The position numbers were made by a program, and so were the translations under genes. The notes under the pieces were generated by a model. It did not search any database, was not told the origin of the DNA, and saw nothing but the letters and a program-made list of their open reading frames with translations. Below, in pieces: positions 7,955 to 61,700 of a stretch of DNA of 64,000 nt. The stretch comes from Halichondria panicea (taxonomy: Eukaryota > Porifera > Demospongiae > Suberitida > Halichondriidae): assembly GCF_963675165.1 (NCBI RefSeq), contig NC_087387.1, positions 5,048,990 through 5,112,989 on the forward strand. The letters run 5' to 3'. Numbering within the stretch: position 1 is the stretch's first letter; every line of letters starts with the position of its first letter.

Positions 7955-8600
7955 CTCTATCACAAGCATAAACATATTCATTTGTCAGCTGCAAAGTCTT
8001 CCCTCCCTTCCCACCCTTATATATAGCATGGTTTGAAAATGTTGTTATTTACGCTTATTTTGTATATTTACCATACTTCTCCGCCTTCGGGCGTGATCGC
8101 TGTCGGGGCATTGCACCACTCTCTCACACTTATGGGAGCTTAAGCTTCACTCCCCCAGATTATAGTATAGGTAATTACTAAGCATAATTATAATAAAAAC
8201 TATAATGAATGTGGTGTGTAGTATTGTATTACAAACATGCATTCATAAGTTCATGCTGTCATACACATGGACGTACATTGGAGTTTAGCATTCAATGTTT
8301 GAATACTATTATTACATAAACTCTTTAGTTACATACAGCTATTTATTTTGTTACTAATATCATGCACTGTGAATTGATGGTATACAAAAACATTTGATTC
8401 AGAACTTCTATTCTAAAAACGTTGGGAGCAAATAACTTTGTCAAATTTTAGATATTTTCTAGGTAGGACAATAGGCGTGTATTCCAAACATGCATTGATG
8501 AGTGCATGTGTGTGTCACTGATGGAAAGAGTTTATGTAAAGGCCACTTGACCTTAGCTAATTAAGGTCACTAATTGGATTTATCCAAACCTCTCTTGCAG
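7955..8600. other. Intergenic; rearranged copy of the beta-helix gene promoter region
   Basis: There is no gene here. About 8212-8540 is near-identical in content to 13440-13770, but part of it (about 8212-8325) is inverted and moved to the other side of the block. The segment includes the gtattccaaacatgcat motif that forms palindromes upstream of the other family copies. Confidence 0.65.
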
Positions 8601-8607
8601 ACTACTA

Positions 8608-11600: not shown

Positions 11601-12161
11601 GTCTTGGTCAAACCACAAAGCTTTCAGGTGGGTGAACAGGTTGAAGCCACTTCTGATGCTTACCAAGGACCTTATAATGACAACTTTCGGTTTTGGACAG
11701 GACTCATGATATTTTTACGACTACTACTTTTTATTGTGTTTGCAACGAATTTCAACAATGATTCTTCAATGAACTTCTTCTGGAGTAACTTTTTGGTTTC
11801 GCCATTCGCAGTGCTTTGCTTTATAAAGAGTGTTTACAGGCAAAAATTTGCTAACTTGCTTGAGGCCTTTTCCCTTCTGAACCTCGTCATGTTGTGCACT
11901 GTTAGCTGGCTGGTAAGGTCGACTGTTTACAATAAGCTACACGAGATTATACCAAAAGTGACATACATCTCAATCGCCCTAACATTACTGGCATTTCTGA
12001 GCATTTTGATTTACCAAGTCACGCTAAAAGTATGTCCCCAGATTCTTATCAGAAACAAACCAAACGATAATGAGCCAGCTGAGCAAGAATTTATTGAGAG
12101 AGAACCAGCAGAACCAACGGTTACGTACGTGGAACTGAGGGAGCCACTATTGGATTTGTAG
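8608..12161 (+). pseudogene. Broken copy 1 of the beta-helix/polytopic membrane protein family
   Basis: It aligns throughout with the two intact tandem copies at 16342 and 21492 but lacks their first ~145 codons, including the signal peptide; homology begins near 8608. Further lesions visible by comparison: a deletion of about 16 nt at 9420 just before taggcataagc; a 2-nt insertion near 9777 (acacacatg versus acacatg); a stop codon at 10588-10590 where the other copies read CAA-TTA-ATT; and a 1-nt deletion near 11650 (cttctgatgc versus cttctcgatgc). Between lesions the reading segments are open, so the decay is recent. It cannot make the full protein. Short open segments (8574-9422, 9452-9817, 9784-10590, 10630-11709, 11604-12161) are pieces of this one gene. 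Confidence 0.85.
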
Positions 12162-15720: not shown

Positions 15721-16341
15721 GGAAGTTTGACAAAGCATTGCAGCATCAGAAATCAAGAACACATGCAGTGGTTGAAAAAGGTATTAGAGTTTTCTCATAC
15801 TGCATGTATTTGGTCTTAACTTACGCAGACGTTGCTTCAATCAAAGTTCTGCCGTATCAACTTTCGATTGTATGAATCTAGTCCTACATGCATGGAGTTA
15901 GACTATACTGAGTGTATATAATTAGTTCAGAGCATCATTAGTATGCCTTTGACATCAACATAATAAAAATATACATGCATGAGCGCCTCCTAGTTTCTCG
16001 CTAGGTAGGCAGGCTTTCATCAGCCCTATCATACACCCCAACAGAAAACAGTTGTAGGGTTGTGAAAAACAATTGGTAGTCCCAATTTTGTAATCTATAA
16101 TATCATGCACATTATCATAGCAAATAACTAAGTCAAATTTGGGAACGCGAGCTAGTCATTGAACTATGTAGGATCATGGTGTATTTGTATTACAAACATT
16201 AACGCGTGTTTGTAATACAAGTACTATACACAACTGGAAACATACAAGAAACAATGGCTTGACATTTTATACATTGCATGCATGTATTTGAAGTATAATA
16301 GCTACAAGATAATACATACAACGTCATAGTTTTAGTCCAAG
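15721..16341 (+). promoter_or_regulatory. Upstream region of intact copy 2
   Basis: It shares blocks with the region upstream of copy 3 (20990-21491): a caggctttcatcagccct segment, the cagaaaacagttgtag segment, a palindrome (16185-16220), and a short leader before the ATG. The same order in both copies shows that the promoter was duplicated with the gene. No TATA box was identified with confidence. Confidence 0.55.
16185..16220. promoter_or_regulatory. Promoter palindrome upstream of copy 2
   Basis: A 14-bp arm, ttgtattacaaaca, and its reverse complement, tgtttgtaatacaa, are separated by a short spacer about 120 bp upstream of the ATG. A counterpart with longer arms is at 21265-21311 upstream of copy 3, and arm sequences also occur near 8224, 8480, 13607 and 13735. 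It may be a dimeric factor site or a rearrangement-prone hairpin. Confidence 0.55.
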
Positions 16342-19300
16342 ATGTTTACAGTGTTCTACTTTTTGCATTTGGCTATATTAAGCATCCTTAGCACAAATGG
16401 ATACCAGCATGTTGTTAAGGTAGCTCCTACTGTTCAAGTCCAAGGAATGGAGTCTCCACAGTATCAAACACTCTGTCACTACATCAACACCACGAATAGT
16501 ATGAATACAACAAATACAACTGTTGAATTTCTTCCTGGAATACATGAAGTTGATCATTGCACCAGCAGCCAGTTAGTGGTGGAACATGTCAGCAACATAG
16601 TTTGGAAAGGCTCACAATCACTAAAGAAGGAATGGCCAATAATAGTGTGCAATAAACGATTCAACTTTATCTTTAGAAGAGTTGCCAACTTAATGTTAAC
16701 AGGTCTTACACTGAGTAATTGTGGTTACGCTAACCGCAGTATGGTGCTACCTAACGAGAGAAGTTACACCTGGTATTGGGAATATATCATGCTTTCCAAT
16801 TTTAAATTTATGGCAGCAATATCCCTGGTCAGCGTTACTAACCTAAATTTTGAAAACATAGCCATTATTAAAAGCGTAGGGTACGGATTATTCGCTTGCA
16901 ACATAATGGGAGAATCACTAATCAATTCCTCTACCTTTGGGGAGAACAAGGCAACAACATCAGATAAGCATGCTGGGGGTAATGCTATCTTCATTTTTCT
17001 TAATGATTCTCAAATGGTGATGAAGCAACCTCATCTCACTATTCAAAACTCCTTTTTTTACAATGGAACTGATAATTTCCTTTGTGAGTGGAAGTGTGAA
17101 ATCAAGAAATTCGGTAGGCAAATCCGTTCAAATGGCTTAGGAATAATTACAATACAAAATAAATACGCTGTAAATGTATTTATTCACAATGTGACGTTCT
17201 CTGGAAATTTTGCACAGAGAAATCGTCTTTCAATACTTATTAATGACCACAGCGGTATTGGCAATAGCTTTCAGTTCATTAACTGTAAATTTGTACAAGA
17301 CGGAGCATTAAAGATAGAGCGAAATTCTGAAGGAAATAATACCATCATAAATGGACATCAATCCACTTTATTGGTCAACGTTGAAAATTGTATTTTCTCT
17401 GAGGGTTTATATACTGGAATTCATGTATTCCTTGAAGACGAAAACCTTTTCCAAGACATTGTAATCAGTAACTGCACTTTCAAACACTTCCGATTAAGAT
17501 CAAAAGCGGTGTTGCAGGTTGTACAACTAGGCATAAGCAGCTCATGTCCACGAATAAGGATGAAAATCACGAATTCGAATTTTTTGAATAACTTAATACC
17601 ATGCTCCAAGTTTGAGCTCACAACATTACCATATAATACCAACAAATGTCCATCAATAATAATTGATAACTGTACTTACGAGAACAATCACAGTCCAAAT
17701 GACTATTTGATTTCATCAGTCAAATCTAAATTGATATATATATATGGAGTTATGTTTGTAGAAAAATATGAAGACGAGTACATACGCAACGGGGGTTTTC
17801 TTGACCAAGTAGCCTTTCGGAGTACATCATTTATCAGTAACACGTTGGGTCCCCAGTCATTCAAAGGAATAGTTGGTGCAACACGTGTGTACATATCATT
17901 CACTAACTGTTATTTCGCAAATTCCACAGGAACAGCGATACAAGCAAATCATTCAGTAATTAGTCTTTTTGAAACTAATCAATTCATCAACAATACTGGC
18001 AAAGAAGGTGGAGCACTGTCCCTCTTGGAGTCAAGATTACATCTCAATAACAACTCAACAACATTTTTTGATCGCAATAAGGCAAACTATGGGGGTGTGA
18101 TATTTGCTACTCCGTACTACTCACGTGGAAATCATAGAGAAATTCCGTTTTGTACATTGGGCCTTCCTAGTTACGGAATAAATACCTCAACAGATTTGAA
18201 AGACTTCAACCTAATAGTAAATGTCACCCTGTATAGTGACACACAAGCATTATACACTGGGAATACTATATTCTATGGAGCATTTAAACATTGCTTACGT
18301 GTGTCGCTTGTCAATGAAAGATATGACGATACTGCCTTGGTTCAAACAAACCTACAAACACTATTATTCCCATCACAATATATATATTCGGTACCATCCA
18401 GCTTAATCCTATGTGGTGCATCTCAGTTTGAAAATAGATTAGTTTTGTCAACATACTCCGGAGCTAATTTTAATCTAAGCATTAAAACAATTGGAGAAAG
18501 CTACGCAGACATTCTACCAGTTTTAATAAGAGAGAAGCTTTGTGTTGAGTACTCCGACGATTCTCGGAAATGCAAATTAGACTATTTAAGTGAGTTACGA
18601 TATGGAGCAGGAAAACATTTGGTAACAACCGATTGCAACAATATCGCATACAGTGTTCACACTCTTTCTAAGAAAATATTTTTGGTAATCCAAATACACC
18701 AATTAATTGAAGAAAGTTCTTCCATAAAACTCAATGCTGCACCTGTGATGGTTGAGGTAAATCTCCAATCATGTCCAATTGGATACGAAATGTCGAAGGA
18801 GAAACCATATTCTTGTATATGTACCGAATACTTGTCAAGTTTTAAAATTGAGTGTAATCTTAATGAAAATGGGAAAATATTGAGGCTTAACCAAATGTGG
18901 ATAGGATTCCATTACAGACATCCAAGCAACATAAGTGTACACAACTCGTGTCCATTCGATTATTGTGTACCCAATCAAGGATACATTAGTCTCAGTCAGC
19001 CTGACGAGCAATGTAGAAGCCAACGAAAAGGTATTCTTTGTGGAGATTGCAGTGGTAATCTGAGCATTGTCCTAGGAACCTCCAACTGCAAGGAATGCAC
19101 TAATTTGTATCTATTTCTGATCATACCATTTGCACTTGCTGGAATAGCTCTTGTGGTTTTACTATTAAAGTGCAACCTTACAGTAGCTAACGGACATATT
19201 AATGGCATCATTTTCTATGCTAACATTGTTCACATCAATAAACCGCTCTTCTTTTCCACATCGAGTAATGCTGCTAGTGTAATATTCTCCACCTTCATAG

Positions 19301-20286
19301 CATGGCTTAATCTCGACCTCGGTATTGAGACTTGTTTCTTTGAGAACATGGACGCTTATGCAAAAGTATGGCTACAATTTGTGTTTCCAGTTTATCTGTG
19401 GACCATTGTTGGTGCCACGATTCTCCTCGCTAAATTCTCATCACGAGTTAGTCAATTCATTGGCAACAACTCTGTTCCTGTACTAGCTACTCTGTTCATC
19501 TTTTCATACGCCAAACTACTCCGAAACATAATTGCTGTAGTGTCTTTTACTTACATTGAGTTTGAAGATGGTTCATCTAGTACAGTCTGGTTGCAGGATG
19601 GAAATGTGCAGTATTTCAGTGCAAAACATGCAGTGCTTTTTCTAATGGCAATGCTCTTCACAATTGGCTACTTATTCCCCATGACATTGTTTGTATTCTT
19701 TGCTCCCTGCTTACAAGGTTGGTCAAACCACAAAGCTTTCAGGTGGGTGAACAGGTTGAAGCCACTTCTCGATGCTTACCAAGGACCCTATACCAAAAAA
19801 TTTCGGTCCTGGACTGGACTCATGATATTTTTACGACTACTACTGTTCATTGTGTTTGCAATGAATTTCAACAATGATGCTTCAATGAACTTATTCTGGA
19901 TCAACTTTTTGATTTCGCCATTTGCAGTGCTTTGCTTTATAATGAGTGTTTACAGGAACAAATTTGCTAACTTTCTTGAGGCCTTTTCCCTTCTGAACCT
20001 CGTCACACTGTGCACTGTTAGCTGGCTGGTAAGATGCACTGTTTACAATAAGCCACACGAGATTATACCAGAAGTGACATACGTCTCCATTGCCCTGACA
20101 ATACTGGCATTTCTGAGTATTTTGATTTACCAAGTCAAACTGAAAGTATTAAATTATTTTCGCCAGATTCTTATCAGAAAGAAACCAAACGATAATGAGC
20201 CAGCCGAGCTAGAAATTATTGAGAGAGTACCAGCAAAACCAACGGTTACGTACGTGGAACTGAGGGAGCCACTATTGGATTTGTAG
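16342..20286 (+). CDS. Intact copy 2: secreted beta-helix ectodomain with polytopic membrane C-terminus
   Basis: Single-exon open frame, 1314 aa. The signal peptide covers roughly residues 1-20 (MFTVFYFLHLAILSILS). A long Asn-rich ectodomain (about 25-830) has many N-glycosylation sequons and short beta-strand repeats of the right-handed parallel beta-helix/Pmp type, for example FINNTGKEGGALSLLES and NKANYGGVIF. A cysteine-rich juxtamembrane region (about 790-920) contains CPIGYEM, CPFDYC, ILCGDCSGN and CKECTN. From about residue 922 there are seven to nine hydrophobic segments, with a charged loop DAYQGPYTKKFRSW before the later ones. The cytoplasmic tail ends VELREPLLDL. The likely site is the plasma membrane, with an adhesion or recognition role inferred from architecture only. 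The polytopic domain was not matched to a named channel or receptor family. Confidence 0.85.
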   Translation: MFTVFYFLHLAILSILSTNGYQHVVKVAPTVQVQGMESPQYQTLCHYINTTNSMNTTNTTVEFLPGIHEVDHCTSSQLVVEHVSNIVWKGSQSLKKEWPIIVCNKRFNFIFRRVANLMLTGLTLSNCGYANRSMVLPNERSYTWYWEYIMLSNFKFMAAISLVSVTNLNFENIAIIKSVGYGLFACNIMGESLINSSTFGENKATTSDKHAGGNAIFIFLNDSQMVMKQPHLTIQNSFFYNGTDNFLCEWKCEIKKFGRQIRSNGLGIITIQNKYAVNVFIHNVTFSGNFAQRNRLSILINDHSGIGNSFQFINCKFVQDGALKIERNSEGNNTIINGHQSTLLVNVENCIFSEGLYTGIHVFLEDENLFQDIVISNCTFKHFRLRSKAVLQVVQLGISSSCPRIRMKITNSNFLNNLIPCSKFELTTLPYNTNKCPSIIIDNCTYENNHSPNDYLISSVKSKLIYIYGVMFVEKYEDEYIRNGGFLDQVAFRSTSFISNTLGPQSFKGIVGATRVYISFTNCYFANSTGTAIQANHSVISLFETNQFINNTGKEGGALSLLESRLHLNNNSTTFFDRNKANYGGVIFATPYYSRGNHREIPFCTLGLPSYGINTSTDLKDFNLIVNVTLYSDTQALYTGNTIFYGAFKHCLRVSLVNERYDDTALVQTNLQTLLFPSQYIYSVPSSLILCGASQFENRLVLSTYSGANFNLSIKTIGESYADILPVLIREKLCVEYSDDSRKCKLDYLSELRYGAGKHLVTTDCNNIAYSVHTLSKKIFLVIQIHQLIEESSSIKLNAAPVMVEVNLQSCPIGYEMSKEKPYSCICTEYLSSFKIECNLNENGKILRLNQMWIGFHYRHPSNISVHNSCPFDYCVPNQGYISLSQPDEQCRSQRKGILCGDCSGNLSIVLGTSNCKECTNLYLFLIIPFALAGIALVVLLLKCNLTVANGHINGIIFYANIVHINKPLFFSTSSNAASVIFSTFIAWLNLDLGIETCFFENMDAYAKVWLQFVFPVYLWTIVGATILLAKFSSRVSQFIGNNSVPVLATLFIFSYAKLLRNIIAVVSFTYIEFEDGSSSTVWLQDGNVQYFSAKHAVLFLMAMLFTIGYLFPMTLFVFFAPCLQGWSNHKAFRWVNRLKPLLDAYQGPYTKKFRSWTGLMIFLRLLLFIVFAMNFNNDASMNLFWINFLISPFAVLCFIMSVYRNKFANFLEAFSLLNLVTLCTVSWLVRCTVYNKPHEIIPEVTYVSIALTILAFLSILIYQVKLKVLNYFRQILIRKKPNDNEPAELEIIERVPAKPTVTYVELREPLLDL

Positions 20287-21337: not shown

Positions 21338-21491
21338 TTCATACACTATACATACCTGGAAACGTAAAGGCAGAATTGCATGGGAAACAAATGTCTGACA
21401 GTTTTAAAGATTGCTGCATTATTATGTAATAGCTGCATAAAAGAGAGACAAGATATATTCAAGTCATAGTTCTATAAAAAAAAAGTCTAAA

Positions 21492-24400
21492 ATGTTTACG
21501 GTGTTCTACTTTTTGCATTTGGCTATAGGCATCCTTAGCATAAATGGATACCAGCATGTTGTTAAGGTAGCTCCTACTGTTCAAGTCCAAGGAATGGAGT
21601 CTCCACAATATCAAACACTCTGTCACTACATCAAAGCTACGAATAGTCTGAATACAACAAATACAACCGTTGAATTTCTTCCTGGAATACATGAAGTTGA
21701 TCATTGCACCAGTAGCCAGTTAGTGGTGGAACATGTCAGCAACATAGTTTGGAAAGGCTCACAATCATTAAAGAAGGAATGGCCAATGATAGTGTGTAAT
21801 AATCGGTTTAACTTTATCTTCAGAAGAGTTGAAAACCTGACGCTAACAGGTCTTACATTGAGTAAATGTGGTAAATACGCTAAACGCAATCTGCAAGTAC
21901 CTCTTCAGAAAAGTTTCACTTGTTATTGGAGTGCCATACTTTCCAGTTTTAAATTCATGGCAGCAATATCACTAGTCAGCGTTACTAACCTAAATCTCCA
22001 AAACATAAACATTTCTGAAAGCGTAGGGTACGGATTATTCGCTCGAAACATAATTGGAGAATCACTAATAAATTCCTCTATCTTTGGAGAGAACAAGGCA
22101 ACAGCATTAAATCAGTTTGCAGGAGGTAATGCTATCTTCATTTTTCTTGATTCTTCTCAAATGGTGATGAAGCAACCTCATCTCACTATTCAAAACTCTT
22201 TCTTCTACAATGGAAGTGATAATTTTCAATGTGAGGAGAAGTGTGAAGTCAATAAATTTGGTAGGCAAATCCGTTCAAATGGCCTAGGAATAATTACAAT
22301 ACAAAATAACTATGCTGTAAAAGTATTTGTACACAATGTGACATTCTCTGGAAATGTTGCATGGAGAAATCGTCTTTCAATACTTATTAATGACCACAGC
22401 GGTATTGCCAATAGCTTCCAGTTCATTAACTGTAAATTTATACAAGACGGAGCCTTAAAGATAGAGCGAAATTCTAAAGGAAATAATACCAACATAAAAT
22501 CAACGTTATTGTTCAACGTTGAAAATTGTATTTTCTCTGAGGGCTTATATACTGGAATTTATGTATTCATTGAAGACGAAAACCTTTTCCAAGACATTAT
22601 AATCAGTAACTGCACTTTCAAACACTTCCATTCAAGATCAAGATCAATAGCGGTGTTGCAGGTAGTACAACTAGGCACAAGCAGCTCTTGTCCACGAATA
22701 AGAATGAAAATCATGAATTCAATTTTTTTTAATAACTCAATATGTTCCAACTTTGAGCTTACAACAACACCATATAGTGCCAACAAATGTCCATCAATAA
22801 TAATTGATAATTGTACTTACGAGAACAATCACAGTCCAAATGACTATTTGATTTCATCTGCCAAATATAAATCTTTATATGGACAATCAGATATTACTTT
22901 TGTAGAAAAGTATGAGGAAGAATACATACTCAATCGGGGTTTTCTTGACCAAGTGGCATTTCGGAGTACATCATTTATCAGTAACACGTTGGGCCCCGAG
23001 TCATTCAAAGGAATAGTTGGTGCAACACATGTGTTCATATCATTCACTAACTGCTATTTCGCAAATTCCATAGGAACAGCGATACAAGCAAATAATTCTG
23101 TAATCAGTCTTTTTGAAACTAATCAATTCATCAACAATACTGGCAAAGAAGGTGGAGCACTGTCCCTCTTAGAGTCAAGACTACATCTTAATAGCAACTC
23201 AACAACTTTCTTTGATCACAATAAGGCAAACTATGGGGGTGTTATATTTGCTACTCCACTCTATTCATACATTGCTCTTACGTACAGTACAACACTTCCT
23301 CTTTGTACATTGGGCCTTCCTAGTTACGGAATAAATATCTCAACAGATTTAAACATATTAGTAAATGTCACCATATATAGTGACACACAAGCATTATACA
23401 CTGGGAATACTATATTCTATGGAGCCTTTGAGTATTGCTTACATGTTTCACTTGCCAATGATACATTTGCCTGGGGTCTCCCAACCTCCATGGTTCAAAC
23501 AAACCTACAAGGACTATTATTCCCATCACAATACATATATTCTGTACCATCAAACTTAATTCTATGTGGTAAATCTCCTTTTGGAAATAGAGCAGTATTG
23601 TTAACATACTCTGGGGCAAACTTTAATCTCAGCATAAAAACAGTTGGAAAAAGTTACGGAAACATTCTTCCAGTTTTAATACGAGAGAAGCTTTGTGTTG
23701 TGTACTTCAACGATTCTCGAAAATGCAAATTAGACTATTTAAGTGAGTTACGATATGGAGCAGGAAAGCAGTTAATAACAACTGATTGCAATAATATCAC
23801 ATACAGTGTTCACGCTCTTCCCAAGAAAATATTTTTGGAAATCGAAATACATCAACTAATTGAAGAAAGTTCTTCCATAAATTTTAAATATGCTACACCT
23901 GTGATAGTTGAGGTAAATCTCCTACCATGTCCTATTGGATACGAAATGTCGAAGGAGAAACCATATTCTTGTGTATGTACCGAATATTTGTCGAGTTTTG
24001 AAATTGCGTGCAATCTTAATGAGAATGGGAAAGTATTAAGACTCCATCAAATGTGGATAGGATTCCATTACAGACATCCAAGCAACATAAGTGTGCACAA
24101 CTCGTGTCCATTCGACTATTGTGTACCCAATCAAGGATACATTAGTCTCAGTCAGCCTGACGAGCAATGTGGAAGCCAACGAACAGGTATTCTTTGTGGA
24201 AATTGCAGTGGTAATCTGAGCATTGTCCTAGGAACCTCGAACTGCAAGGAATGCACTAATTTGTATCTGTTTCTGATCATACCATTCGCACTTGCTGGAA
24301 TAGCTCTTGTGGTTTTGCTATTAAAGTGCAACCTTACAGTAGCTAACGGACACATTAATGGCATCATTTTCTACGCTAACATTATTCACATCAATAAACC

Positions 24401-25427
24401 GCTCTTCTTTTCCACATCGAGTAATGCTGCTAGTGTAATATTCTCCACCTTCATAGCGTGGCTTAATCTCGACCTCGGTATTGAGACTTGTTTCTTTGAG
24501 AAAATGGATGCTTATGCAAAAGTATGGCTACAATTTGTGTTTCCAGTTTATCTGTGGACCATTGTTGGTGCCACTATTCTCCTCGCTAAATTCTCATCAC
24601 GAGTTAGTCGATTCATTGGCAACAACTCTGTTCCTGTACTAGCTACTCTGCTCATCTTTTCATACGCCAAACTACTCCGAAACATAATTGCTGTAGTGTC
24701 TTTTACTTACATTGAGTTTGAAGATGGTTCATCTATTGCCGTCTGGTTGCAGGATGGAAGTGTAGAGTATTTCAGTGCAAAACATGCAGTGCTTTTTCTA
24801 ATGGCAATGCTCTTCACAATTGGCTACATATTCCCCATGACATTGTTTGTATTCTTTGCTCCCTGCTTACAAGCTTGGTCAAACCACAAAGCTTTCAGGT
24901 GGGTGAACAGGTTGAAGCCACTTCTCGATGCTTACCAAGGACCCTATACCAACAAGTTTCGGTCCTGGACTGGACTAATGATATTCTTACGACTACTACT
25001 GTTCATTGTGTTTGCAATGAATTTCAACAATGATGCTTCGATGAACTTTTTTTGGATTAACATTTTGATTTCACCGTTCACAGTGCTTTGCTTTATAAAG
25101 AGTGTTTACAGGAAAAAATTTGCTAACTTTCTTGAGGCCTTTTCCCTTCTAAACCTCGTCATGTTGTGCGCTGTTAGCTGGCTGGTAAGATCAACTGTTT
25201 ACAATAAGCTACACGAGATTATACCAGAGGTGACATACGTCTCCATCGCCCTAACATTACTGGCATTTCTGAGCATTTTGATTTACCAAGTCAAACTGAA
25301 AGTATTTCCCCAGATTCTTATTAGAAAGAAACCAAACGATAATGAGCCAGCTGAGCAAGAAATTATTGAGAGAGTACCAGCAAAACCAACGGTTACGTAC
25401 GTGGAACTGACGGAGTCACTATTATAA
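21492..25427 (+). CDS. Intact copy 3: secreted beta-helix ectodomain with polytopic membrane C-terminus
   Basis: Single-exon frame of 1311 aa, closely similar to copy 2 over its length. Signal peptide MFTVFYFLHLAIGILS, Asn-rich beta-helix ectodomain with the GGALSLLES and GGVIFATP repeats, the same cysteine-rich stalk (CPIGYEM, CPFDYC, ILCGNCSGN, CKECTN), polytopic region from about residue 922, and tail ending VELTESLL rather than VELREPLLDL. The tail change alters the most conserved end of the family and may affect sorting. Differences from copy 2 concentrate in the ectodomain (for example around 22240-22700 and 23440-23500), while the membrane region is almost unchanged. This pattern would suit a variable recognition surface on a constant transducer, but that is inference. 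Confidence 0.85.
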   Translation: MFTVFYFLHLAIGILSINGYQHVVKVAPTVQVQGMESPQYQTLCHYIKATNSLNTTNTTVEFLPGIHEVDHCTSSQLVVEHVSNIVWKGSQSLKKEWPMIVCNNRFNFIFRRVENLTLTGLTLSKCGKYAKRNLQVPLQKSFTCYWSAILSSFKFMAAISLVSVTNLNLQNINISESVGYGLFARNIIGESLINSSIFGENKATALNQFAGGNAIFIFLDSSQMVMKQPHLTIQNSFFYNGSDNFQCEEKCEVNKFGRQIRSNGLGIITIQNNYAVKVFVHNVTFSGNVAWRNRLSILINDHSGIANSFQFINCKFIQDGALKIERNSKGNNTNIKSTLLFNVENCIFSEGLYTGIYVFIEDENLFQDIIISNCTFKHFHSRSRSIAVLQVVQLGTSSSCPRIRMKIMNSIFFNNSICSNFELTTTPYSANKCPSIIIDNCTYENNHSPNDYLISSAKYKSLYGQSDITFVEKYEEEYILNRGFLDQVAFRSTSFISNTLGPESFKGIVGATHVFISFTNCYFANSIGTAIQANNSVISLFETNQFINNTGKEGGALSLLESRLHLNSNSTTFFDHNKANYGGVIFATPLYSYIALTYSTTLPLCTLGLPSYGINISTDLNILVNVTIYSDTQALYTGNTIFYGAFEYCLHVSLANDTFAWGLPTSMVQTNLQGLLFPSQYIYSVPSNLILCGKSPFGNRAVLLTYSGANFNLSIKTVGKSYGNILPVLIREKLCVVYFNDSRKCKLDYLSELRYGAGKQLITTDCNNITYSVHALPKKIFLEIEIHQLIEESSSINFKYATPVIVEVNLLPCPIGYEMSKEKPYSCVCTEYLSSFEIACNLNENGKVLRLHQMWIGFHYRHPSNISVHNSCPFDYCVPNQGYISLSQPDEQCGSQRTGILCGNCSGNLSIVLGTSNCKECTNLYLFLIIPFALAGIALVVLLLKCNLTVANGHINGIIFYANIIHINKPLFFSTSSNAASVIFSTFIAWLNLDLGIETCFFEKMDAYAKVWLQFVFPVYLWTIVGATILLAKFSSRVSRFIGNNSVPVLATLLIFSYAKLLRNIIAVVSFTYIEFEDGSSIAVWLQDGSVEYFSAKHAVLFLMAMLFTIGYIFPMTLFVFFAPCLQAWSNHKAFRWVNRLKPLLDAYQGPYTNKFRSWTGLMIFLRLLLFIVFAMNFNNDASMNFFWINILISPFTVLCFIKSVYRKKFANFLEAFSLLNLVMLCAVSWLVRSTVYNKLHEIIPEVTYVSIALTLLAFLSILIYQVKLKVFPQILIRKKPNDNEPAEQEIIERVPAKPTVTYVELTESLL

Positions 25428-34012: not shown

Positions 34013-34567
34013 TCACTCAATGTCATTAGTTTTCACACCAATCTTGAGTCCTTTCAGGCCTCTAGCTTTAGCAATCACTTTCAATAGTTTTTCTATCTCC
34101 TTTATCTTCGTTTCCCCACTATCGTCTGGTAGCCCTTGGCTCTCCTCTTGCTCCTGAAACTTCTTCAAAATCGATTCAACTTTTTGTTGCTTGTCAGGGT
34201 TAGAAGAATCAGGAAAGCTGATTGCCATTCCAGTAATTCCCTTCTTATCAGCAGTCATGCGCAGTGCCTCCTCGATTTCCATGATCACTTCTTTCTCCTT
34301 CTCCGTCAATGCACCTCCTGTGCTTTGCAACTGATCCAACTTCTCCCTAATCTTTTGTATGCGATCTTCAATATCGGTGTCATCGGTATCCAATAAACTA
34401 TCATCTTCATCTTCTTCTTCTTCGTCTTCTTCTTGTTGCATATAGCTCTTTTCCTGAGCCTGCATCCGCTGAAAGTATGCTTCTGCCGCAGCTTCTAAAT
34501 TCTCATACCTCGGAGCAGCATAGGCTATGGCAGCCAATGCAAGGACCAAGAGAACAGTCTTCGTCAT
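34013..34567 (-). CDS. Secreted acidic coiled-coil protein, 184 aa
   Basis: Single exon. MTKTVLLVLALAAIAYA is a signal peptide. Next comes an acidic block (about residues 45-68) with runs of E and D such as EEDEEEEDEDD, then charged heptad-like stretches (DRIQKIREKLDQLQ, EKEVIMEIEEALR, QQKVESILKKFQEQ, KIKEIEKLLKVIAKARGLKG) predicted to form helices or coiled coils. No cysteines are seen in the mature part. A TATA box lies about 90 bp upstream (34653-34661). The family is not recognised; the acidic tract could bind calcium or a basic partner, but that is a guess. It is the first of several small secreted-protein genes on this strand over 34-45 kb. Confidence 0.75.
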   Translation of the reverse strand: MTKTVLLVLALAAIAYAAPRYENLEAAAEAYFQRMQAQEKSYMQQEEDEEEEDEDDSLLDTDDTDIEDRIQKIREKLDQLQSTGGALTEKEKEVIMEIEEALRMTADKKGITGMAISFPDSSNPDKQQKVESILKKFQEQEESQGLPDDSGETKIKEIEKLLKVIAKARGLKGLKIGVKTNDIE

Positions 34568-37188: not shown

Positions 37189-40100
37189 ATGAAAGTGTTT
37201 TACTTGTCTTGTTGTCTCTGTCTCTGGTAAGTAGAATAACTCTATACACCTTTGTTTATCCATATAGATAGTCTTATACTCTACTAGATCTAGATGTTTC
37301 GGTATAACGTATCACTGTATATCTAAATGTTACTTTCACTCTCTGAAGGTTCCAACTCTTAGGAGCATCCTACTTACAAAGACCAAGGATCAATTTCGCT
37401 GGAGAGTTTAAGGCCGATGTCTCCACTATGAACAACAGAGTCGAGAACTATGAACGCTCTATGGAGACTGGGGAGAACCTGCAATTGCACAAGTGGTGGA
37501 ATTGGAACCCTGAAAGTCCAAATACTTGGACAATGATGGACTGTGTAGTAACTTCAGTTGTGTTGGAAAACGGTTTAACCATGAACGATGAAATTGTTGG
37601 CAAGCCAATTGTGATTAATCCAGGTAGCTCCCTGCCTAAGATCGTGGATATTGATACAGCTCACAGAAATTCCAGTAGCGTTTTTGGCATGAAGCTAGGT
37701 GTAAATTGGAGCACAGATGGAAAATCAAGGAATTCTTTTTTCGGAGATTTTATCCCGTCACCATTAACTCATGAGCCATGGATACGTCAGACAGATGGAT
37801 CAATGTTTGCCAATTTAGGCGCTCGTGGTGTTTCTCAGCTTTCTAACGTACGATGGTCTGATCACCTGACTTCTGAAGCTTTGGAGAGGTTGAAAACACT
37901 TACAAGTCGTGACAAAACAAATGGTTACACTCTCTCGATCATGCTTTCACTATTTGATTACACAATGAGCTCTGACAGGCGGTTTTATGGTAAACTGGTT
38001 GGGAGTATTGGTATTACAACACTTGGAGAATCTTTGGTGTTTCCTGCAAACAGAGTGTTGTTGTTTACAAAGAATCCTCCATTACCTGTACCTTACCAGA
38101 GTCGAATGTGTATGTACAATTGGACTAATACTGCTTACTTTGATATCTTTGCCTCGAGAATGACTATTGATTTAAGTAACTCTCTTGCTTTGAACATCAA
38201 TAGTGATGTATGTCATTTTTATCCCTACTATGCTGGCGTTTTGACAGACCAGCAAACCGTTGAAATTTTAGGTGAGATTCCATACATGGAGAAAGACTGG
38301 TACTGGAAAACAAGTGGCATTCAAGATATCAATCTCACAAGGTCTCAATTAGAGCGTGCTAAAAGTCATCAAATTGTTGTTGTTGTCTTCAAAGAAGAAC
38401 CTCCCTCGGAAATTAACCATCTAAGATTTCCAATCTGTGAAAACTCTCTCACAAATGACATTGATAGTTGCTTGTATGTTATTCTAAGAGAAACTGCCTA
38501 CCTCGTACGCCCACTTAACAGATATATCTATCGACTAGAGAAAGGAGACTTGGTTCAAGTTAATTTGAAAGTGAAACATTACGGAAATCAACCAAGCAAG
38601 CACATACCCGTCACACTTTGTGATAGCAGTCGCAATGTGCCTGCAAAAAAATCTGATCTCGAGTTTCAGAGCACACAAATAACAAACGATGCTGGCATTG
38701 CAACGTTCACTTTTGTTGCTGGTGATGTTGGAAGTCCTAGGAAAGGTATTGACGGGCAACTGTTCCAATTCAACTATTGTGTATGCGAAGACTGTGAGAC
38801 TGTCAATTGCTCTCAGTGCGAGGCAAAGGGTGGTAATCAAATTGTATTTCTGGTGTGGAGTGATATTAAATATCAAATGCCGTATTATTGGGACACACAC
38901 GTTAAACCTATTTTCACTCAATATCAAAATCTTTATCCAGCGATGAACAAGATTGTAAAACTAGGTGATTATGATGATGTCACTAAACCTCGAAATATCG
39001 ACATGATTCTGTTTTCAATGTCTTTAGATACCAATCACTCCAGCTACATGCCAGTGACGAGAGATCTTTCACCATTAAAAAGAAAAATGATAATTAAATG
39101 GTTGAAAACTCCCGACCACCCCCGTAATCGAGAAGACGACATGCTGTACGAATCACCTCCATTCTGCCATCAAACATACTTGTATAACGAAGAGAAACAA
39201 AAAATTGAGGAAGCTAGAATACAAATAGAAGACTCGTTTCCATGGATGAAACAATACCGTTCCAGTGGGTACATGAGAATGCTTTTAGGTGAAACAGAAG
39301 ATATTCTACCAACACTTGCAGATTCCCAAGTAACTCGTTCTTTTTTCGATGTTGCCACAGTTACACTGCCGACTTATGACAGGATACCACGGAGTGTCAG
39401 TCCACATAAATCAGGTTACTCCCGTCTCTTATCTGCCATTTTAAACCTAGATAGAAAACCACTACCAAACTGGTACACATATCACTGTTCCAAACAACTG
39501 CTCAAAGAGATGTTACAGCTAGCCGTACAGTTAGAATTCTCTACCATTCCACCGTATCTGACAGCTCTCTACTCTATTAAGGATGGCTACAATCGAGAGG
39601 CGTACGAACTCATTCGCTCTGTCGTCATGCAAGAAATGCTTCACCTGGCACAAGCTGCCAACCTGCTGATTGCTATCGGTGGACGGCCAGTAATTGACAG
39701 TGCACAGGCTGTCCCATCTTACCCCGGGAAGATACCGGGAGGAGTGTTACCTGGTCTCAATGTAACACTACAGAAAGCATCTCCCAAGTATATAGCTGAT
39801 GTGTTCATGATGATAGAATTCCCTGACAACATCATTTACAAGGACCACCATACGGAAAAAGGAATTGAAGCTCACGTAGTTACAATTGGAAAGCTTTACA
39901 AACGTATACAACAGTGTATGATTGAACTGTACGAAAAAGAAAGAGATAATTTGTTCAAAACAGAAGTCAAGCAGCTCTCATGGCCGTGGAAAGAACACGA
40001 AGAAGGTATTAAGCTGACGACTGTGACCAATATAGAAGAAGCAATAGAGGCCATAAATATGATAATTGAAGAGGGAGAAGGAACTCCACAAAGAGACCCA

Positions 40101-40520
40101 ACCTACTTGAAAACATTAGAGCTTGCTCACTTCTTCAAGTTTGAAATGCTCGCCTGCAAACATCATTTGAGAGTCCTCCATGATAACGATCAGTACATGT
40201 ACGATTTCCGTGGTAAAAAGATAGAGTTCACATCCGAAGGCGTGTGGCCAATGAGAAATAATCCATCATCGAAAACTATTCCCAGAAAATCACTTGCGTA
40301 CCGAGAGACTAAAATATTTCACAGCTTGTATCGTTCTCTGTTGAGTTTATTCCAAGAATCGTTTGATGGACGACCTGACGCTATCAAGGAGGCTGTTCCA
40401 ATCATGGAGGCAATGCAGCTACAAGCAAAGAACCTGATGACTATGGAAGTACCCTCTAAACCTGGTCACCCAAAACAAACTTACGGTCCAACATTTGAGT
40501 ATGAAATGCTAGAAGCATAA
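37189..40520 (+). CDS. Secreted VioB-like protein (iminophenyl-pyruvate dimer synthase family), ferritin-like domain
   Basis: Exons 37189-37226 and 37349-40520 (donor gtaagt, acceptor ctgaag, phase 2) give 1069 aa, close to bacterial VioB (~1000 aa) and RebD/StaD. The short first exon plus the start of exon 2 encode a signal peptide (MKVFYLSCCLCLWFQLLG). Residues ~25-80 match the VioB N-terminus in style (RINFAGEFKADVSTMNN, NWNPESPNTW, DCVVTSVVLENG). From ~725 there is a ferritin-like domain (PF12902 type): QLEFSTIPPYL with Glu742, MQEMLHLAQ with Glu775 and His778, AIGGRP, and HFFKFEMLACKHH with Glu945. Known family members couple two oxidised amino-acid imines on the way to violacein or chromopyrrolic acid. 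Substrate here is unknown, and secretion would be unusual. Bacterial origin by transfer is possible. I recognise the family from motifs, not a search. Confidence 0.75.
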
Positions 40521-40984: not shown

Positions 40985-41170
40985 GCTTGTACCATTCTCT
41001 GTTGAGTTTATTCCAAGAATCATTTGATGGACGACCTAGCTGACGCTATCAATTAAAGAGGCTGTTCCAATCATAGAGGCATGCAGCTACAAGCAAAGAA
41101 GCTGATGACTATGGAAGTACCCTCTAAACCTGGTCACCAAAACAAACTTTATGGTCCAACATTTGAATAA
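40985..41170 (+). pseudogene. Decayed duplicate of the 3' end of the VioB-like gene
   Basis: It repeats the last ~190 nt of the gene coding region (ttctctgttgagtttattcc... and ctctaaacctggtcacc...), with small insertions, an early stop and a truncated end, about 460 bp downstream of the intact stop. It shows that a second copy or partial duplication once existed here. Confidence 0.8.
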
Positions 41171-41405: not shown

Positions 41406-41855
41406 TCAACCTTTGAGTTTATCAAGTATTGCTGGGAGAAATGAAAGAACAAGAGACGGGGAAAACTGCTTCTCTGCCACTTCCTCCTCACTGTCTTCCT
41501 CCACAGCAGCAACCTCCTCCTCCAACTCCAACGCCATCTTCTGCAGCATCTCATTCAACTCTTCTTCAGCAGAATTCATATAATCGGGTTGCCGTCTGGG
41601 AGTGGGTGGGAGACAGTTGACAAAGCCTTGCAAAATCCTCCTCAAGTTGAACCCCTCAATATCCACTTCATAAGATGGCTTATCCCTGCGGCCGATCTTC
41701 TGCAAAGCACATCCAGCAGTGTTCAGGATCTGAAAGAATTTAGATTTGAATCCATTGATTCTAGCCAGTTCTTCTTCGTCTTGATCGGTGAGGAGTGGTT
41801 TGCTGTGCACACTCACAAGCACAGCGAGCAAAGCAAGAGCAATGTAAAGCTTCAT
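41406..41855 (-). CDS. Small secreted precursor protein, type 1 (149 aa)
   Basis: Single exon from the ATG that opens a signal peptide, MKLYIALALLAVLVSVHS; an upstream in-frame ATG at 42017 would bury it and is unlikely. The mature part has two cysteines (TAGCALQK and FVNCLPPTP) around an RRIL motif. A strongly acidic helix follows (EELNEMLQKMALELEEE... EEDSEEEVAEKQ), then a 19-residue hydrophobic/basic end, FSPSLVLSFLPAILDKLKG. The gene at 43206 shares this plan and several motifs, so the two are paralogues. The layout resembles precursors of secreted bioactive peptides, with an acidic propiece before a C-terminal amphipathic peptide whose last Gly could donate an amide. That role is inferred, not shown. 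A TATA-like site lies ~65 bp upstream. Confidence 0.7.
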   Translation of the reverse strand: MKLYIALALLAVLVSVHSKPLLTDQDEEELARINGFKSKFFQILNTAGCALQKIGRRDKPSYEVDIEGFNLRRILQGFVNCLPPTPRRQPDYMNSAEEELNEMLQKMALELEEEVAAVEEDSEEEVAEKQFSPSLVLSFLPAILDKLKG

Positions 41856-41920
41856 TCTTCGTTTGAATTCTTGACTCGATCTTCTTTCACAAAAAATGAA
41901 CAGAGTTTGTTCGGCAGAAG

Positions 41921-41930
41921 TATATAAATT
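41921..41930 (-). promoter_or_regulatory. TATA-like element of the type 1 precursor gene
   Basis: The reverse strand reads gaatttatatactt about 66 bp upstream of the start codon, comparable in position to TATA boxes of neighbouring secreted-protein genes. Confidence 0.45.
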
Positions 41931-42244
41931 CTCAATGTTGTCACTTGACAAATTGATGTTTGTGAAATGTTTTCTTGTATTTAGTTTCGGTTTCCTGAAC
42001 ATTTTCCAAAAAGTCATAGATAAGCCTTGGGAAATAACTGTTGAATAGAGTCAACGTCAATGTTATTAACTTTACAAGATAGCTAGTGAGTTTTCACAAA
42101 GAGTTTACATAAGGCCTTCACAATTAATGCATTGTAAATATCATGGGCATTCGGTATCAATGGTGGTTATAGTGTCTCTCAGCCCTCGATCGGGCGTAAG
42201 TGCTATAATGAGTAATTAATGGTGTTTTTGTAAGTCAGACTTGA

Positions 42245-43205: not shown

Positions 43206-43661
43206 TCAGCCAATTCTGTTAGCACCTTCCCGAAGTATCATCTTGCCAACATCTTTTAGAAAATTTTTAAAATCCTTTTTACGTTGTTCATTAGCCACTT
43301 CTTCCTGGCTATTGTCCTCCATCTCGGCAACTTGCTGCTCCTCCAGCTCTTGAACAATCTCCTCATTCAGCAAGTCGTTCAGAGCTTCCTCAATGGCGGC
43401 TTTTTCTTTGCTGGGTAAAAGAGGCGTTTCCATTGTATAAACACATGCCATAATGGCCGGGAGAATCCTGTCGAAAGTCATTTCTGAGCCAGAGCTAGAA
43501 AAAACACAGCTAGCAATTTGGAGAATAGCAGACAATGGGTTTGCATTTTGTTGAGTTTCCACATTATTGGAGGGATTAGGGAAACGTAAGAAGGGCGAGA
43601 ATGGTTTGCTGCACACGCCTCCTAGAGCGGCCAGAAGAGCGATACCAACGATTACCTTCAT
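43206..43661 (-). CDS. Small secreted precursor protein, type 2 (151 aa)
   Basis: Single exon. Signal peptide MKVIVGIALLAALGGVCS is followed by KPF (as KPL in the 41406 protein). Two cysteines (IASCVFSS and MACVYTM) flank DRILPAI, parallel to RRILQGF of the paralogue. An acidic helix follows (AAIEEALNDLLNEEIVQELEE) with MEDNSQEEVANEQ. The basic amphipathic C-terminus, RKKDFKNFLKDVGKMILRE, is followed by GANRIG. The conserved D/N-S-x-EEVA-x-x-Q motif just before the C-terminal segment in both paralogues may be a processing boundary. The cationic end could act on membranes or as a signal peptide hormone. Both ideas are inference; no known family was recognised. Confidence 0.7.
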   Translation of the reverse strand: MKVIVGIALLAALGGVCSKPFSPFLRFPNPSNNVETQQNANPLSAILQIASCVFSSSGSEMTFDRILPAIMACVYTMETPLLPSKEKAAIEEALNDLLNEEIVQELEEQQVAEMEDNSQEEVANEQRKKDFKNFLKDVGKMILREGANRIG

Positions 43662-57414: not shown

Positions 57415-58743
57415 AGTGTGAGGGTGTGGAGAGTGTGACTGTGTGTGTGTGGGAGGTGGGTGGAGCAAAGTGTGAGGAGTGTGTGAGAGGTGGGGGTGCG
57501 AATAGGTGTGTGAGTGGGTGGGGGTGGGAATAAGTGTGAGATGGGTGAGGGTGGGGTATGGCTTAGGTGTGAGGTGTGAGGTGTGAGGCTAAACAAGCCC
57601 TTGCCAACGTACTGATACAAGGAATGCTATTGTAATTACCCAGCCAGTGTATGTATTTTCATCAGACACTCACCTTTGATTGTGTGGATATGGTGAAGCA
57701 CTTTAGGTACTAGAATGACATATACGGACTATTGTAGAATCACTTCTAGTTATGAATCAACAGTCCAGCTCTCCATCAAACATGGTACAAGAAATGCTTA
57801 GTCACCCCGACCGTAACCTATCTAATTATGTATTTTTGTTTCAATATTTCAGGTAGGTCAACTTTGTATTTTTATATTAACGATCAATACCATCCTAATT
57901 TCGGCCTACTGCGCATGTGCAAATGCAACAACAAAATCAGAGCTGTGACGACCAGGACTAGCTGCAAAAGCACTGCAATTTGGAAGTTTAAAGGTGAGTA
58001 ACGCAGAACTATAGTGTCTAGCTAGAGGACTGCTTGTAGCTATCTCTAGTACTTTTGTTCAGTAGTCATTATTATATTAGCAATGTGTACTTCAGTATTT
58101 GAGTGTATTCAACAATTTACACAAAAGTATATACTATTTTTAGGCCTGGTGAACTATCTTGCTGAAATTCCTGGAATGTGTCTATAAGCTATACAGTTTA
58201 TTGCTATAGCCAGTGGGTGTTGGATTTGTACTATGCATGTATACACTGTTAAAATGGTGTGTTAATGAACGCACTTAGTGTGGCTCGTTCCACTGCTTAT
58301 ATTAAGCCTTTTCTGTACTAATAATGGTGGTAAAATACAGGTAGTACAATAATTATCTATTGGCCTTTTCAATACCTGCTAAATATACGTTCCATGTTCA
58401 AGTATACTGGTGTGAATGCAGCCTGTTAACTTTCAGTTTTCTGTTAGATTGCTTAATATTCAATTTGTTAGTATACTTATACAAATCAAAAGTATACATT
58501 CCAAACATGTATGTGGGTGCCCATGATGCATTTAGTTGGTAAAGACAAATATAGTAATGACATTTGTTTAGGTGTGGAATAACACTGTTTGTGTCTTAAA
58601 TAATAATTACAACTGTTGATCTTGAAGCTAAGTTGCCAATGTTTGCTGAAAGAATAAACATTAGTCATTGTAGTAATAGGAAATGATAACATTCAAAACA
58701 AGTTTTCATAACAATATTGTTCCCTCAGACATAGCCGATCAAG
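57415..58743. other. Divergent intergenic region and probable 5' UTR exon of the downstream gene
   Basis: It lies between the CUL1 start (- strand) and the next + strand gene. A donor-like tttaaag/gtgagt at 57993 pairs plausibly with the acceptor tccctcag at 58728, 15 bp before the ATG at 58744, giving a non-coding first exon. 57420-57590 is a GT-rich low-complexity leader of CUL1. No other gene is seen. Confidence 0.5.
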
Positions 58744-61700
58744 ATGCCTCTTTTTGCACTTACTCTGTTAGTGCTGGTGGCTTTTTCAAGTGGAAACCAA
58801 AATTGTAGCAACATTCGTGATTTGAATTCTTGCATCAAAGTAAACATTTCTGAGAACCAAGAATTAGCGGCTGTGGTTGAAATTAGCAATATCGACTCAG
58901 TTATGCTAAAAGCATTTTCTGACCCAGTGATTATCACATGCATCAATGGAGGAGCTCTTGCTTTTAGTAATATGACAAGGGTAACGATCCATAACATGGC
59001 TTTCGTCTCGTGCGGTAACCACAGCAACTCAGACTACGGATTACGATTCACAAATGTCAGTGATGTGGAACTCAGCAACATTGTTCTCTCAAATAACTCA
59101 TTTGGTGCTTTAAGTGTAGTTGGTGGAAATGTGAGCATCACAAACATCAGTATAACGGACAATACAGGTGGTGGTCAAAATGTAGTTTCCCTAATCAACT
59201 GTCCTATGGTGCACATTTTAGGCAGAAACGAAATCTGCAATAATTGGCTTGAAAGTAATTTACGCTGCCACAACTCGAAAGCTAAGGTACACTTTAATAA
59301 TCTCAAAACAGTGATGTTTGTTAACAACAGTGAGATAATGATTATCGATGGTTCATTGAATGTGAATGACAACATGGGCTTCTCAGGCATTATATACATC
59401 AAGAACGTACGCATGTTTAATATTTACGGAGAAGGAAAGTTTCACGGAAATAAAGTTTGTGTAAATGGAGCTCTACATTTTGAAAAAGTAAATGCTTTGC
59501 TCAGTGGAAACTTTGTATTTCAAAACAATTCAGGTGGTGAATACTATTTTCAGAAGCGCCCGACTGCAGCTGCAAGTATTAGCGTTCGTGGAAGCTCGCT
59601 TACAGTGATTGGTTCTATTCATTTCGAGCACAATCGTGGGGACATAACAGCAATGTACATTAATCAAGAATCAGCGGTATATATCACCGGGACATTGCAT
59701 ATAACTAGACAGACCGACGGGTTTGCAGGAGTATTCATAAGAGGTGAATCAAATTTGACAATTAATGGAGCTGGAGAATTCTTAAACAATGGAGTGCACA
59801 ATGCTGTGATACGAGTAGAGACTGGAATTATGGATACCAATGGAAATATGACATTCTTGAACAACTACGGCAACAGTCCTTGTGTGTTTAGAATCAGAAG
59901 CTATGTTCGTATGCACGGCTCTATCTTATTTCAAAACAACTCAGGCGTTTTCTATATTGTCGATAGTACGGTAGAAGTGGATGGAGAAGCTACATTTGAC
60001 TCAAACAATGTTCGTGATTTTGGTATTGGTGGGGCGATTGCTATGTTCAGAAGTGAGCTATATCTGAGTGGACAGTACACGTTCTCAAACAACAGTGTTA
60101 GCGATGTTGACGGTGGTGTGGTGTATGGTCACCTTAGCTCACTCATATTTGCTGGTAATGGATCTTTTATCGGAAACAGTGCTAGATACGGAGGTGCCAT
60201 ATATCTTCAAAACAAACCAGTGATCAAGTTGAGAGAAGGAGCGTCTCTACAATTTGTTAGCAATACAGCAATTAAAGGAGGTGCATTATACATATTTGGT
60301 TCACGCGATAGCTTCAAATGCAATAACAAAACTGCTGACGTTGACTTTGATACTCCACCATGCTTCATCACCTCGAATGGTACTATTGACAGATACTCCG
60401 TTACATTTCGCAACAACACAGCCAAAGAAGGTGGCGGGGGCAGCGTACTACAAGTGAGGGTGGTTGAGGATTTCGATATTACGAACAGAAATGAAAGCAT
60501 GCTAACCAGTTGCAATGATTGTGCAGTAAGCTTGTTTGACAGAGAAAATTCCAAAACTAATTCAAATCCTCTCCTCTCGTCTGATACGTTCCGATTATGT
60601 TTCTGCAACAAAGGAAAGCCTGATTGCTTAATGAATGATCTATCTATAAGTGCCATAAGAGGAGAATCTTTCACTGTTGAAGTCACTTCCTTTACGTTTA
60701 ACCTGTTTGAAGCGAATCCGTCACACGCAGTTCGAACTTATTTCCAGACTATCGATACTGATTCTAGACGCGTGATCGAAGGCACCTCGCAGACATTGCA
60801 AGAGCATTGTACAACTCTCAATTATACTGTACAATCCACTGACGTAAAAGAAATGATAGTGATATCTGCAGATGAGTCGTGTGAAATATCCAACGCCCAG
60901 TTGACGATGGAGGTCACTCTAAACGAATGTCCTCACGGGTTCTCTAGATCTGAGGGTATGTGTGTCTGCGATGACCACATCAGCCGATTGGTTCGAGAGT
61001 GCAATGTGAACTCAAGAGAATTGATAAAAAGAGACATTTACAGAAACACCTGGATGACATCATACAATGAAAGTGACAAGAAAGGGATACTATATTACGA
61101 GTACTGTCCTTTGGAATATTGCTTGACGTCAGAATCAGCTGTGCTCCCATTAAACCCTGACAGTCAATGTGCAGGCAATCGAACAGGAACGGTGTGTGGG
61201 AAATGTAGGGATGGCTACAGTCTTCTCCTGGGAACTCCACGGTGCAGTAAATGTACAAACTCTTATCTCGCCTTACTGATCCCATTTGCCCTTGTTGGTA
61301 TCTTACTTGTTTGCTTCTTATTTCTGACACAGCTGACAGTTGCAACAGGCACTATTCACGGTGTCATTCTTTACGCTAACATAGTGAATGCTCACCGAGA
61401 TATCTTCTTTACGAAAAACTTTTGCCCAATTTACACTATCTTTATATCATGGCTTAACCTTGACTTTGGAATCAACACTTGTTTCTACGATGGAATGGAT
61501 CACCTGGCATACAATGGGTGGCAATTTATATTCCCTCTTTATTTGTGGTTCGTTGTCGGGTGCATGATTGTTATCTGTCACTGTTCTGTACGAGTATCAA
61601 AGTTTTTCGGTAAAAGTGATCCTGTTGCCGTGCTTGCTACGATAATTTTGCTTTCTTATAACAAACTGCTACAAACCATCATTGCAATATTCTCCATTGC

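Follow-up and report, generated by a model that had tools for sequence, protein, structure and literature searches.

We analysed a 64,000-nucleotide stretch of the genome of the sponge Halichondria panicea (contig NC_087387.1, positions 5,048,990 to 5,112,989 of the forward strand; hereafter the window) and focused on one gene in it, at 37189-40520. This gene is one of eight full-length host copies that make up what is apparently a secreted, cysteine-marked animal version of an uncharacterised group of bacterial VioB-like proteins, which is the new element here. Our preferred reading is that this expanded animal family, descended from bacterial proteins of the VioB superfamily, consists of secreted enzymes that carry out a metal-dependent oxidative coupling. 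It is a tentative reading, built largely on analogy, to which we assign a probability of about 0.4.

The gene lies on the + strand of the window. An open frame of 1057 codons spans 37347-40520, and joining an ATG exon (37189-37226) to 37349-40520 gives a spliced sequence of 3210 nt encoding 1069 aa, which reproduces the length given in an earlier sequence-only reading of this DNA. The first exon is 38 bases long and holds the start codon and the hydrophobic core of a putative signal peptide, MKVFYLSCCLCLW, with its last codon split in phase 2. It is followed by a 122-bp phase-2 intron (37227-37348, GTAAGT...AG), whose acceptor falls at the equal codon in all eight paralogues. The second exon (37349-40520) carries the remaining protein and the stop codon without a break, and the spliced product begins MKVFYLSCCLCLWFQLLGASYLQRPRINFAG. 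A long unbroken exon of this kind is present in every one of the eight copies. The signal-like exon and single intron described in the sequence-only reading were therefore recovered. The window gene is real, and chance is excluded because seven further full-length copies exist at 44-87% identity.

A protein search of the host assembly (131 Mb, 39 contigs) gave 11 matches, comprising the eight full-length copies and three fragments. The full-length copies (100, 87, 60, 60, 60, 53, 44, and 44% identity) lie on contigs C11, C6, C14, C1, and C3, each of 6.5-18 Mb, and a search with the ferritin-like family PF12902 gave eight matches, all within these copies. As a marker for host DNA we used Wnt, a family known only from animals, which produced 10 exon-level matches on C3, C6, and C12 and none in 14 control genomes; C3 and C6 carry VioB-like copies too, in agreement with an animal host. 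The GC content at third codon positions (GC3) of the copies is 0.355-0.410, and the 2-kb blocks of the window range from 35 to 48% GC, with 38-40% around the gene. Because eight full-length copies sit on five contigs, two of which also bear Wnt, the gene belongs to host DNA; contamination by a bacterium or symbiont, which the sequence-only reading had named as fatal to its claim, is excluded by the multi-contig copies, GC3, and Wnt. Ratios of nonsynonymous to synonymous substitution rates (dN/dS, NG86 method) indicate that the compared copies are under purifying selection: 0.287 for the window gene versus the C11 copy, 0.295, 0.257, and 0.332 for three other close pairs, and 0.192 at dS 1.55 for the window gene versus C14a (one further pair gave no usable dS). 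Fragments of extra VioB-like copies were also seen, at 40987-41170 of the window (+ strand; the C-terminal end of a second copy, stop included), at about 993-1232 of locus L002, and at about 2984-3333 of L008, and we take them as signs of gene birth and loss.

The sole Pfam family matched by the window protein is PF12902 (E-value 1.2e-53; 182.7 bits versus a gathering cut-off of 22.3), in line with the profile match predicted from the sequence alone, and all eight genomic copies exceed the cut-off. This ferritin-like domain (39513-40151, + strand) contains Glu742, Glu775, His778, Glu836, Glu923, and His940 (precursor numbering), which are kept in all 27 proteins of an alignment of 8 animal, 15 bacterial VioB-like, and 4 VioB/RebD rows. 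These six conserved positions are putative metal ligands. The sequence-only reading had listed Glu742, Glu775, His778, and Glu945; all four residues are present, but Glu945 fails as a conserved site, being Gly in two animal paralogues and various residues in bacteria, and we rejected it as a ligand. Glu836, Glu923, and His940 had gone unnamed.

We used AlphaFold2 to model the window copy, the one copy for which the beta-rich and Ig-like (immunoglobulin-like) regions were modelled. The full model has a mean predicted local distance difference test (pLDDT) score of 67.9 and a predicted template modelling (pTM) score of 0.50; in the ferritin-like part, pLDDT is mostly 70-94 in blocks of ten, with loops as low as 35. 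Model residues 710-1050 matched 3hl1 with Z 27.4 over 263 residues at a root mean square deviation of 2.4 A (Foldseek E 3e-8). Residues 382-505 are predicted to form a middle Ig-like or macroglobulin-like beta domain (38493-38864, + strand), which matched a wide range of unrelated Ig-like domains (VIA-align Z 8.1-9.6), that is, a common fold. The N-terminal domain (37377-38021, + strand), which bears a PRxNFxG...TxxNN signature, was modelled separately on precursor residues 20-393 and is predicted to be beta-rich (mean pLDDT 62.2). Its best structural matches were two proteins of unknown function (Z 7.5-7.7), followed by AbyU (7.0-7.3), dirigent proteins (6.2-6.8), and allene oxide cyclase (5.9-6.0). 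We treat an AbyU/dirigent/allene-oxide-cyclase barrel as a hint only, because these scores fall below those of the two proteins of unknown function and Foldseek gave no match at E <= 0.001. No catalase fold was among the 50 matches listed by either structural search of this domain, and a sequence search of our PDB copy found no solved VioB structure. The N-terminal and middle regions are also homologous to bacterial proteins: a profile of the eight copies scored 411 bits on the Streptomyces protein at locus L011, with the match made up of four segments (profile positions 7-245, 452-600, 730-842, and 853-1065). The full-length architecture proposed from the sequence alone, with N-terminal, middle, and ferritin-like parts, was in this way matched in bacterial relatives.

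We searched bacterial and archaeal genomes with the alignment of the eight copies and confirmed 14 loci, eight of which matched from about residue 7 to 1050, with best-segment identities of 25-36%. The host was the sole eukaryote in our homologue searches; fungal and schistosome PF12902 proteins, discussed below, come from the literature. In Chromobacterium and Caulobacter the homologue is split into two adjacent open reading frames (ORFs), N-terminal then ferritin-like, and two Streptomyces loci have a single ORF (946 residues from the first start at L011). With the animal profile, the two Streptomyces proteins scored 411 and 407 bits, and the N- and C-terminal Chromobacterium ORFs 207-231 and 222-226 bits, respectively. 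Within the phylum of Streptomyces, 8 of 296 genomes matched the window protein, and within that of Chromobacterium 14 of 398 matched an alignment (centre genome counted in each case), mostly through the ferritin-like domain alone. Plasmids contributed 165 matching records out of 72,556, and in seven of these the match covered at least 80% of the query. The nearest relatives seen were thus uncharacterised bacterial VioB-like proteins, mostly encoded as two-gene pairs. The family was probably acquired by transfer from bacteria, given that the relatives found are bacterial and the gene body is intronless, but PF12902 has also been reported in fungi and, in one paper, in a schistosome.

The relationship to VioB itself is more distant. 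The window protein scored 25.1 bits on the VioB equivalog TIGR04492 versus a cut-off of 1250, and the animal profile scored 34.6 bits on a genuine VioB, that of Chromobacterium subtsugae (L023), which itself scored 1701.4 bits on TIGR04492. A VioB query for RebD/StaD matched 5 of 396 actinomycete genomes, all partially, and the RebD-like rows of our tree were taken from plasmids. "RebD-like" is our own label, assigned from a position beside genes for a flavin adenine dinucleotide (FAD) oxidoreductase, an FAD monooxygenase, or a cytochrome P450; the records themselves call these proteins "ferritin-like domain-containing protein" or "VioB - polyketide synthase". In the 27-row tree, with its root set by choice on VioB/RebD, the animal rows formed one group and the four VioB/RebD rows another, each with support 100, and a repeat without one long-branch row (1000 ultrafast bootstraps) again gave 100 for both. 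In 16% of 200 bootstrap trees a single branch set the bacterial VioB-like rows apart, so the animal group may lie among them or beside them. Finer placement is unsafe: the rows vary in letter composition, and a long branch (1.34) leads to the animal group. The sequence-only reading, which had called the protein VioB/RebD-like, was right about the superfamily but wrong about the branch, both by score and by tree: the animal rows fall outside the VioB/RebD group, and we rejected VioB/RebD orthology.

We then considered where the protein would act. A plausible hydrophobic first exon, with the shared phase-2 splice site, was found in seven of the eight copies. To find these exons, ATG-to-donor candidates within 4 kb upstream were ranked by hydrophobicity, with the final choice made by eye, and the proposed peptides are MKVFYLSCCLCLW, MKVLYLSCCLYFW, MKTSTHWLCLFFFW, MKTSTHWWLCLFICW, MKTSTPWLYLFIIW, MHKFQWVQLLVLLW, and MQGDRSLLLLLAW. 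The window gene and the 87% copy share 32 of 38 bases in exon 1 and the donor GTAAGT, 81 of 115 bases in the aligned intron, and 169 of 267 in the upstream 300 bases. Hydropathy over 19 residues peaks at the N-terminus at a moderate 1.54, followed by 1.39 at residue 771 in the ferritin-like part, and the C-terminus is MLEA, without KDEL. Ten Cys residues are invariant across the eight animal copies in our first alignment (in a separate alignment nine are present in all eight and Cys726 in six), and at each of these ten positions just 0 or 1 of 19 bacterial rows has Cys. Hydrophobicity and paralogue conservation suggest a signal peptide, and the first exons, extra Cys, N-terminal hydropathy peak, and C-terminus without KDEL, taken together, point to a soluble, secreted protein.

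The genomic context of the bacterial VioB-like genes offers a clue to function. In a search with Ebo proteins as queries, 10 of the 17 full-length loci proved to have ebo genes close by. They are present at seven of the eight loci matched at full length in the genome scan (L009-L015; L018 is without them) and at three of five plasmid loci: L063 and L064 have all six Ebo proteins and L065 has EboB and EboD only, and the Azospirillum loci L062 and L069 have none. No ebo gene was found at the remaining four (L028, L030, L031, and L045; stretches of 4.7-9 kb). The EboE model gave 455 and 434 bits at ebo loci, and the species concerned belong to the Pseudomonadota, Actinomycetota, Bacteroidota, and Cyanobacteriota (the last with EboB and EboD only). 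Published work implicates ebo genes in exporting the monomer of scytonemin to the periplasm, where its oxidative dimerisation takes place (PMC6282210). Neither VioB nor ferritin is mentioned in the main text of two ebo papers, and the open literature that we searched contained no VioB-like gene beside ebo among the matches listed, so the association looks undescribed there. The co-occurrence in four phyla suggests that ebo-dependent export has an oxidative coupling step joined to it, which would parallel scytonemin dimerisation in the periplasm. Some bacterial loci have a different neighbour. A gene for a LodA-type oxidase adjoins the full-length locus L015 (oxidase gene at 609-4043, - strand; Pfam) and four loci with the ferritin-like domain only, namely L019 (Pfam) and L017, L052, and L053 (tblastn). 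LodA-type quinoprotein amino-acid oxidase genes thus adjoin bacterial PF12902 genes, as described for fungi (PMC4417212).

In the mechanism we propose, the protein would enter the endoplasmic reticulum, form disulfides, and load iron or another metal pair, possibly with heme as reported for VioB. It would then oxidise, by coupling or otherwise, a small molecule that stems from an aromatic amino acid, either within the secretory pathway or extracellularly; bacteria with ebo genes may first export the corresponding monomer. We propose coupling because of the analogy with VioB and RebD, which act on amino-acid-derived intermediates: VioB is described as dimerising the indolepyruvate imine made by VioA (PMC9705886), and RebO and RebD together as making chromopyrrolic acid from tryptophan (PMC10784701). 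By the same analogy, bis-indole or aryl-imine chemistry is possible for the animal proteins. One possible source of imine or peroxide in the host would be an L-amino-acid-oxidase-like ORF, of which the genome has at least one (L070, 243-1826, - strand; 527 codons in one open frame; PF01593 at 144.7 bits), whose best PDB matches are L-amino-acid oxidases. It lies on C3 at 1.85 Mb, about 1.4 Mb from the VioB-like copies of that contig at 3.25-3.26 Mb.

Several observations weigh against a coupling enzyme. We know of no enzyme of the nearest bacterial VioB-like group with a known activity, and the chemistry is therefore extrapolated across a deep split, with branches of 1.1-1.7 changes per column. 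Model confidence is modest outside the ferritin-like domain. The chosen first exon was not top-ranked in C6 and C1 and was nested inside the top candidate in C14a, and within 4 kb upstream of C3b no convincing first exon was found; sequons, at 3-7 per animal protein and 0-9 per bacterial one, do not tell the two apart. Nor could biosynthetic neighbours common to the copies be recognised in the stretches compared around them, and neither EboE nor LodA_N had a match in the animal genome, in searches that can miss intron-split genes. Finally, the first ATG of the L-amino-acid-oxidase-like ORF does not open a hydrophobic stretch, and on this evidence a secreted enzyme and its putative precursor supply would not be co-located.

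Nearly as likely as the coupling enzyme is a re-purposed extracellular metalloprotein without a specific metabolite as its product, which would act on peroxide or iron in the manner of a catalase, peroxidase, or ferroxidase and serve in mucus, matrix, or defence. Catalase activity with heme b has been reported for VioB (PMC9705886), and the six retained ligand positions, the signature of secretion and disulfides, and the lack of recognised precursor-pathway genes beside the copies would all suit such a role. However, conservation spans the whole 1056-residue body, including the N-terminal signature and an MPxxRxLS motif, which exceeds what a simple metal-binding bundle would need, and the bacterial kin are often found in metabolite-export loci. 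The invariance of the six positions in all 27 proteins makes a non-catalytic structural or binding protein, such as a scavenger or matrix component with Ig-like and barrel-like domains, improbable, although the Ig-like middle domain, the expansion of the family with its remnants, and the extracellular features are what one would expect of it. A true VioB/RebD orthologue with an indolylpyruvate imine dimer as its product would explain the shared overall architecture and the alignment of VioB over most of the length, but we consider it very improbable given 25.1 bits versus 1250 and the separation from the VioB/RebD group, which has support 100 in either tree. The bacterial ancestry of the family might suggest symbiont contamination or an assembly artefact; set against five contigs of 6.5-18 Mb, a spliced first exon, GC3 values within a region of 38-40% GC, and Wnt on two of the same contigs, its probability is negligible.

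If the family does consist of secreted coupling enzymes, several consequences would follow. The VioB/RebD relatives make the dimeric scaffolds of violacein and rebeccamycin, and with an animal family that has an intact putative active site and an export signal, a coupling enzyme of bacterial type would become part of host physiology. Small molecules may be made or processed outside the animal's cells in a manner not yet described, and the family offers a testable gene for the question of who makes certain sponge metabolites. A more specific scenario, which we regard as unlikely, is that the lineage captured a bacterial enzyme of the ebo-linked VioB-like group, gave it a signal exon, multiplied it to eight genes, and now builds dimeric aromatic metabolites extracellularly. 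Sponge-type bis-aryl or bis-indole chemistry, which is usually credited to symbionts, would then have a route encoded by the host. Host-made sponge alkaloids have a precedent, because oroidin alkaloids are described as made with animal genes; the passages available from that 2026 paper name neither VioB nor ferritin (PMC12833800).

We also examined the genes around the copies. Three small proteins are encoded on the - strand of the window, at 34013-34567, 41406-42017, and 43206-43661. They have signal-like starts (from an internal Met in the 41406 ORF) and acidic stretches, two of the three end C-terminally in Gly, and they look like secreted peptide precursors. None has a Pfam match, and none matched the stretches around the other seven copies at E <= 1. 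The 43206-43661 protein, the one of the three searched genome-wide, found itself only at a meaningful E-value (second match, E 0.71). The functional tie to neighbouring secreted-peptide genes that was suggested from the sequence alone is not borne out by these searches. Four large proteins are encoded on the + strand (8574-12161, 16336-20286, 21441-25427, and 58735-62511), each with a hydrophobic C-terminal half, and three of them are alike and in tandem; one piece gave a weak Beta_helix match (E 0.0044), and the other scanned pieces gave no Pfam match. A comparison of flank against flank (562 ORFs, nine stretches) returned matches that we read as VioB-like remnants, overlaps between stretches, short repeat-like matches, and one match to a Sushi ORF of the window. 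No amino-acid oxidase or tailoring gene of a bis-indole cluster was recognised among the selected window ORFs that were scanned, or as shared among the stretches around the copies, of which some ORFs were scanned against Pfam. The tandem pair on C3 has a duplicated low-complexity ORF without a Pfam match; this transcription-factor-looking ORF lies upstream of the C3 copies and is co-duplicated with them (L007, 5731-7500, - strand; L006, about 8559-8951).

Among the matches listed in our searches of the open literature, we found no animal VioB-like protein apart from a schistosome record of PF12902, and the main text of the paper on gene transfer in Amphimedon (PMC4784904) contains neither ferritin, violacein, nor VioB; in sponges, such proteins may already have been annotated automatically. 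The schistosome record lists PF12902 among the domains of vesicle proteins of Schistosoma haematobium (PMC7563238); it is known by domain name only and could be an ordinary ferritin. The fungal PF12902 genes beside lodA/lodB in Gymnopus luxurians (PMC4417212), compared here through the published description only, are likewise eukaryotic, but they are LodA-linked, and LodA_N was not found in the animal genome. The solved structure 3hl1 (ferritin-like protein CC_0557 of Caulobacter vibrioides) shares the fold of the C-terminal domain; it is a 317-residue chain, without the N-terminal 700 residues. VioB (TIGR04492), RebD, and StaD resemble the animal proteins in length, domain order, ferritin-like domain, and ligand positions. 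They differ in forming a separate group (support 100), in their 25% identity (to VioB) and sub-cut-off score, and in their neighbours, as no vio- or reb-type genes were recognised around the animal copies. The uncharacterised bacterial VioB-like proteins share full-length homology, the SYLxxPRxxFxGxFxxDxST(V)NN motif, PF12902, and equal positions for all six ligands. In contrast to the animal genes, the bacterial ORFs that we read begin at or near the N-terminal motif, without a signal exon, and they lack the ten invariant Cys. The two also differ in how the protein is divided among genes: in Chromobacterium, Mycetohabitans, Aureibacter, Gloeothece, Azospirillum, and Caulobacter it is a pair annotated as "hypothetical protein" and "ferritin-like protein", in Streptomyces it is a single ORF, and in the animal it is one long exon.

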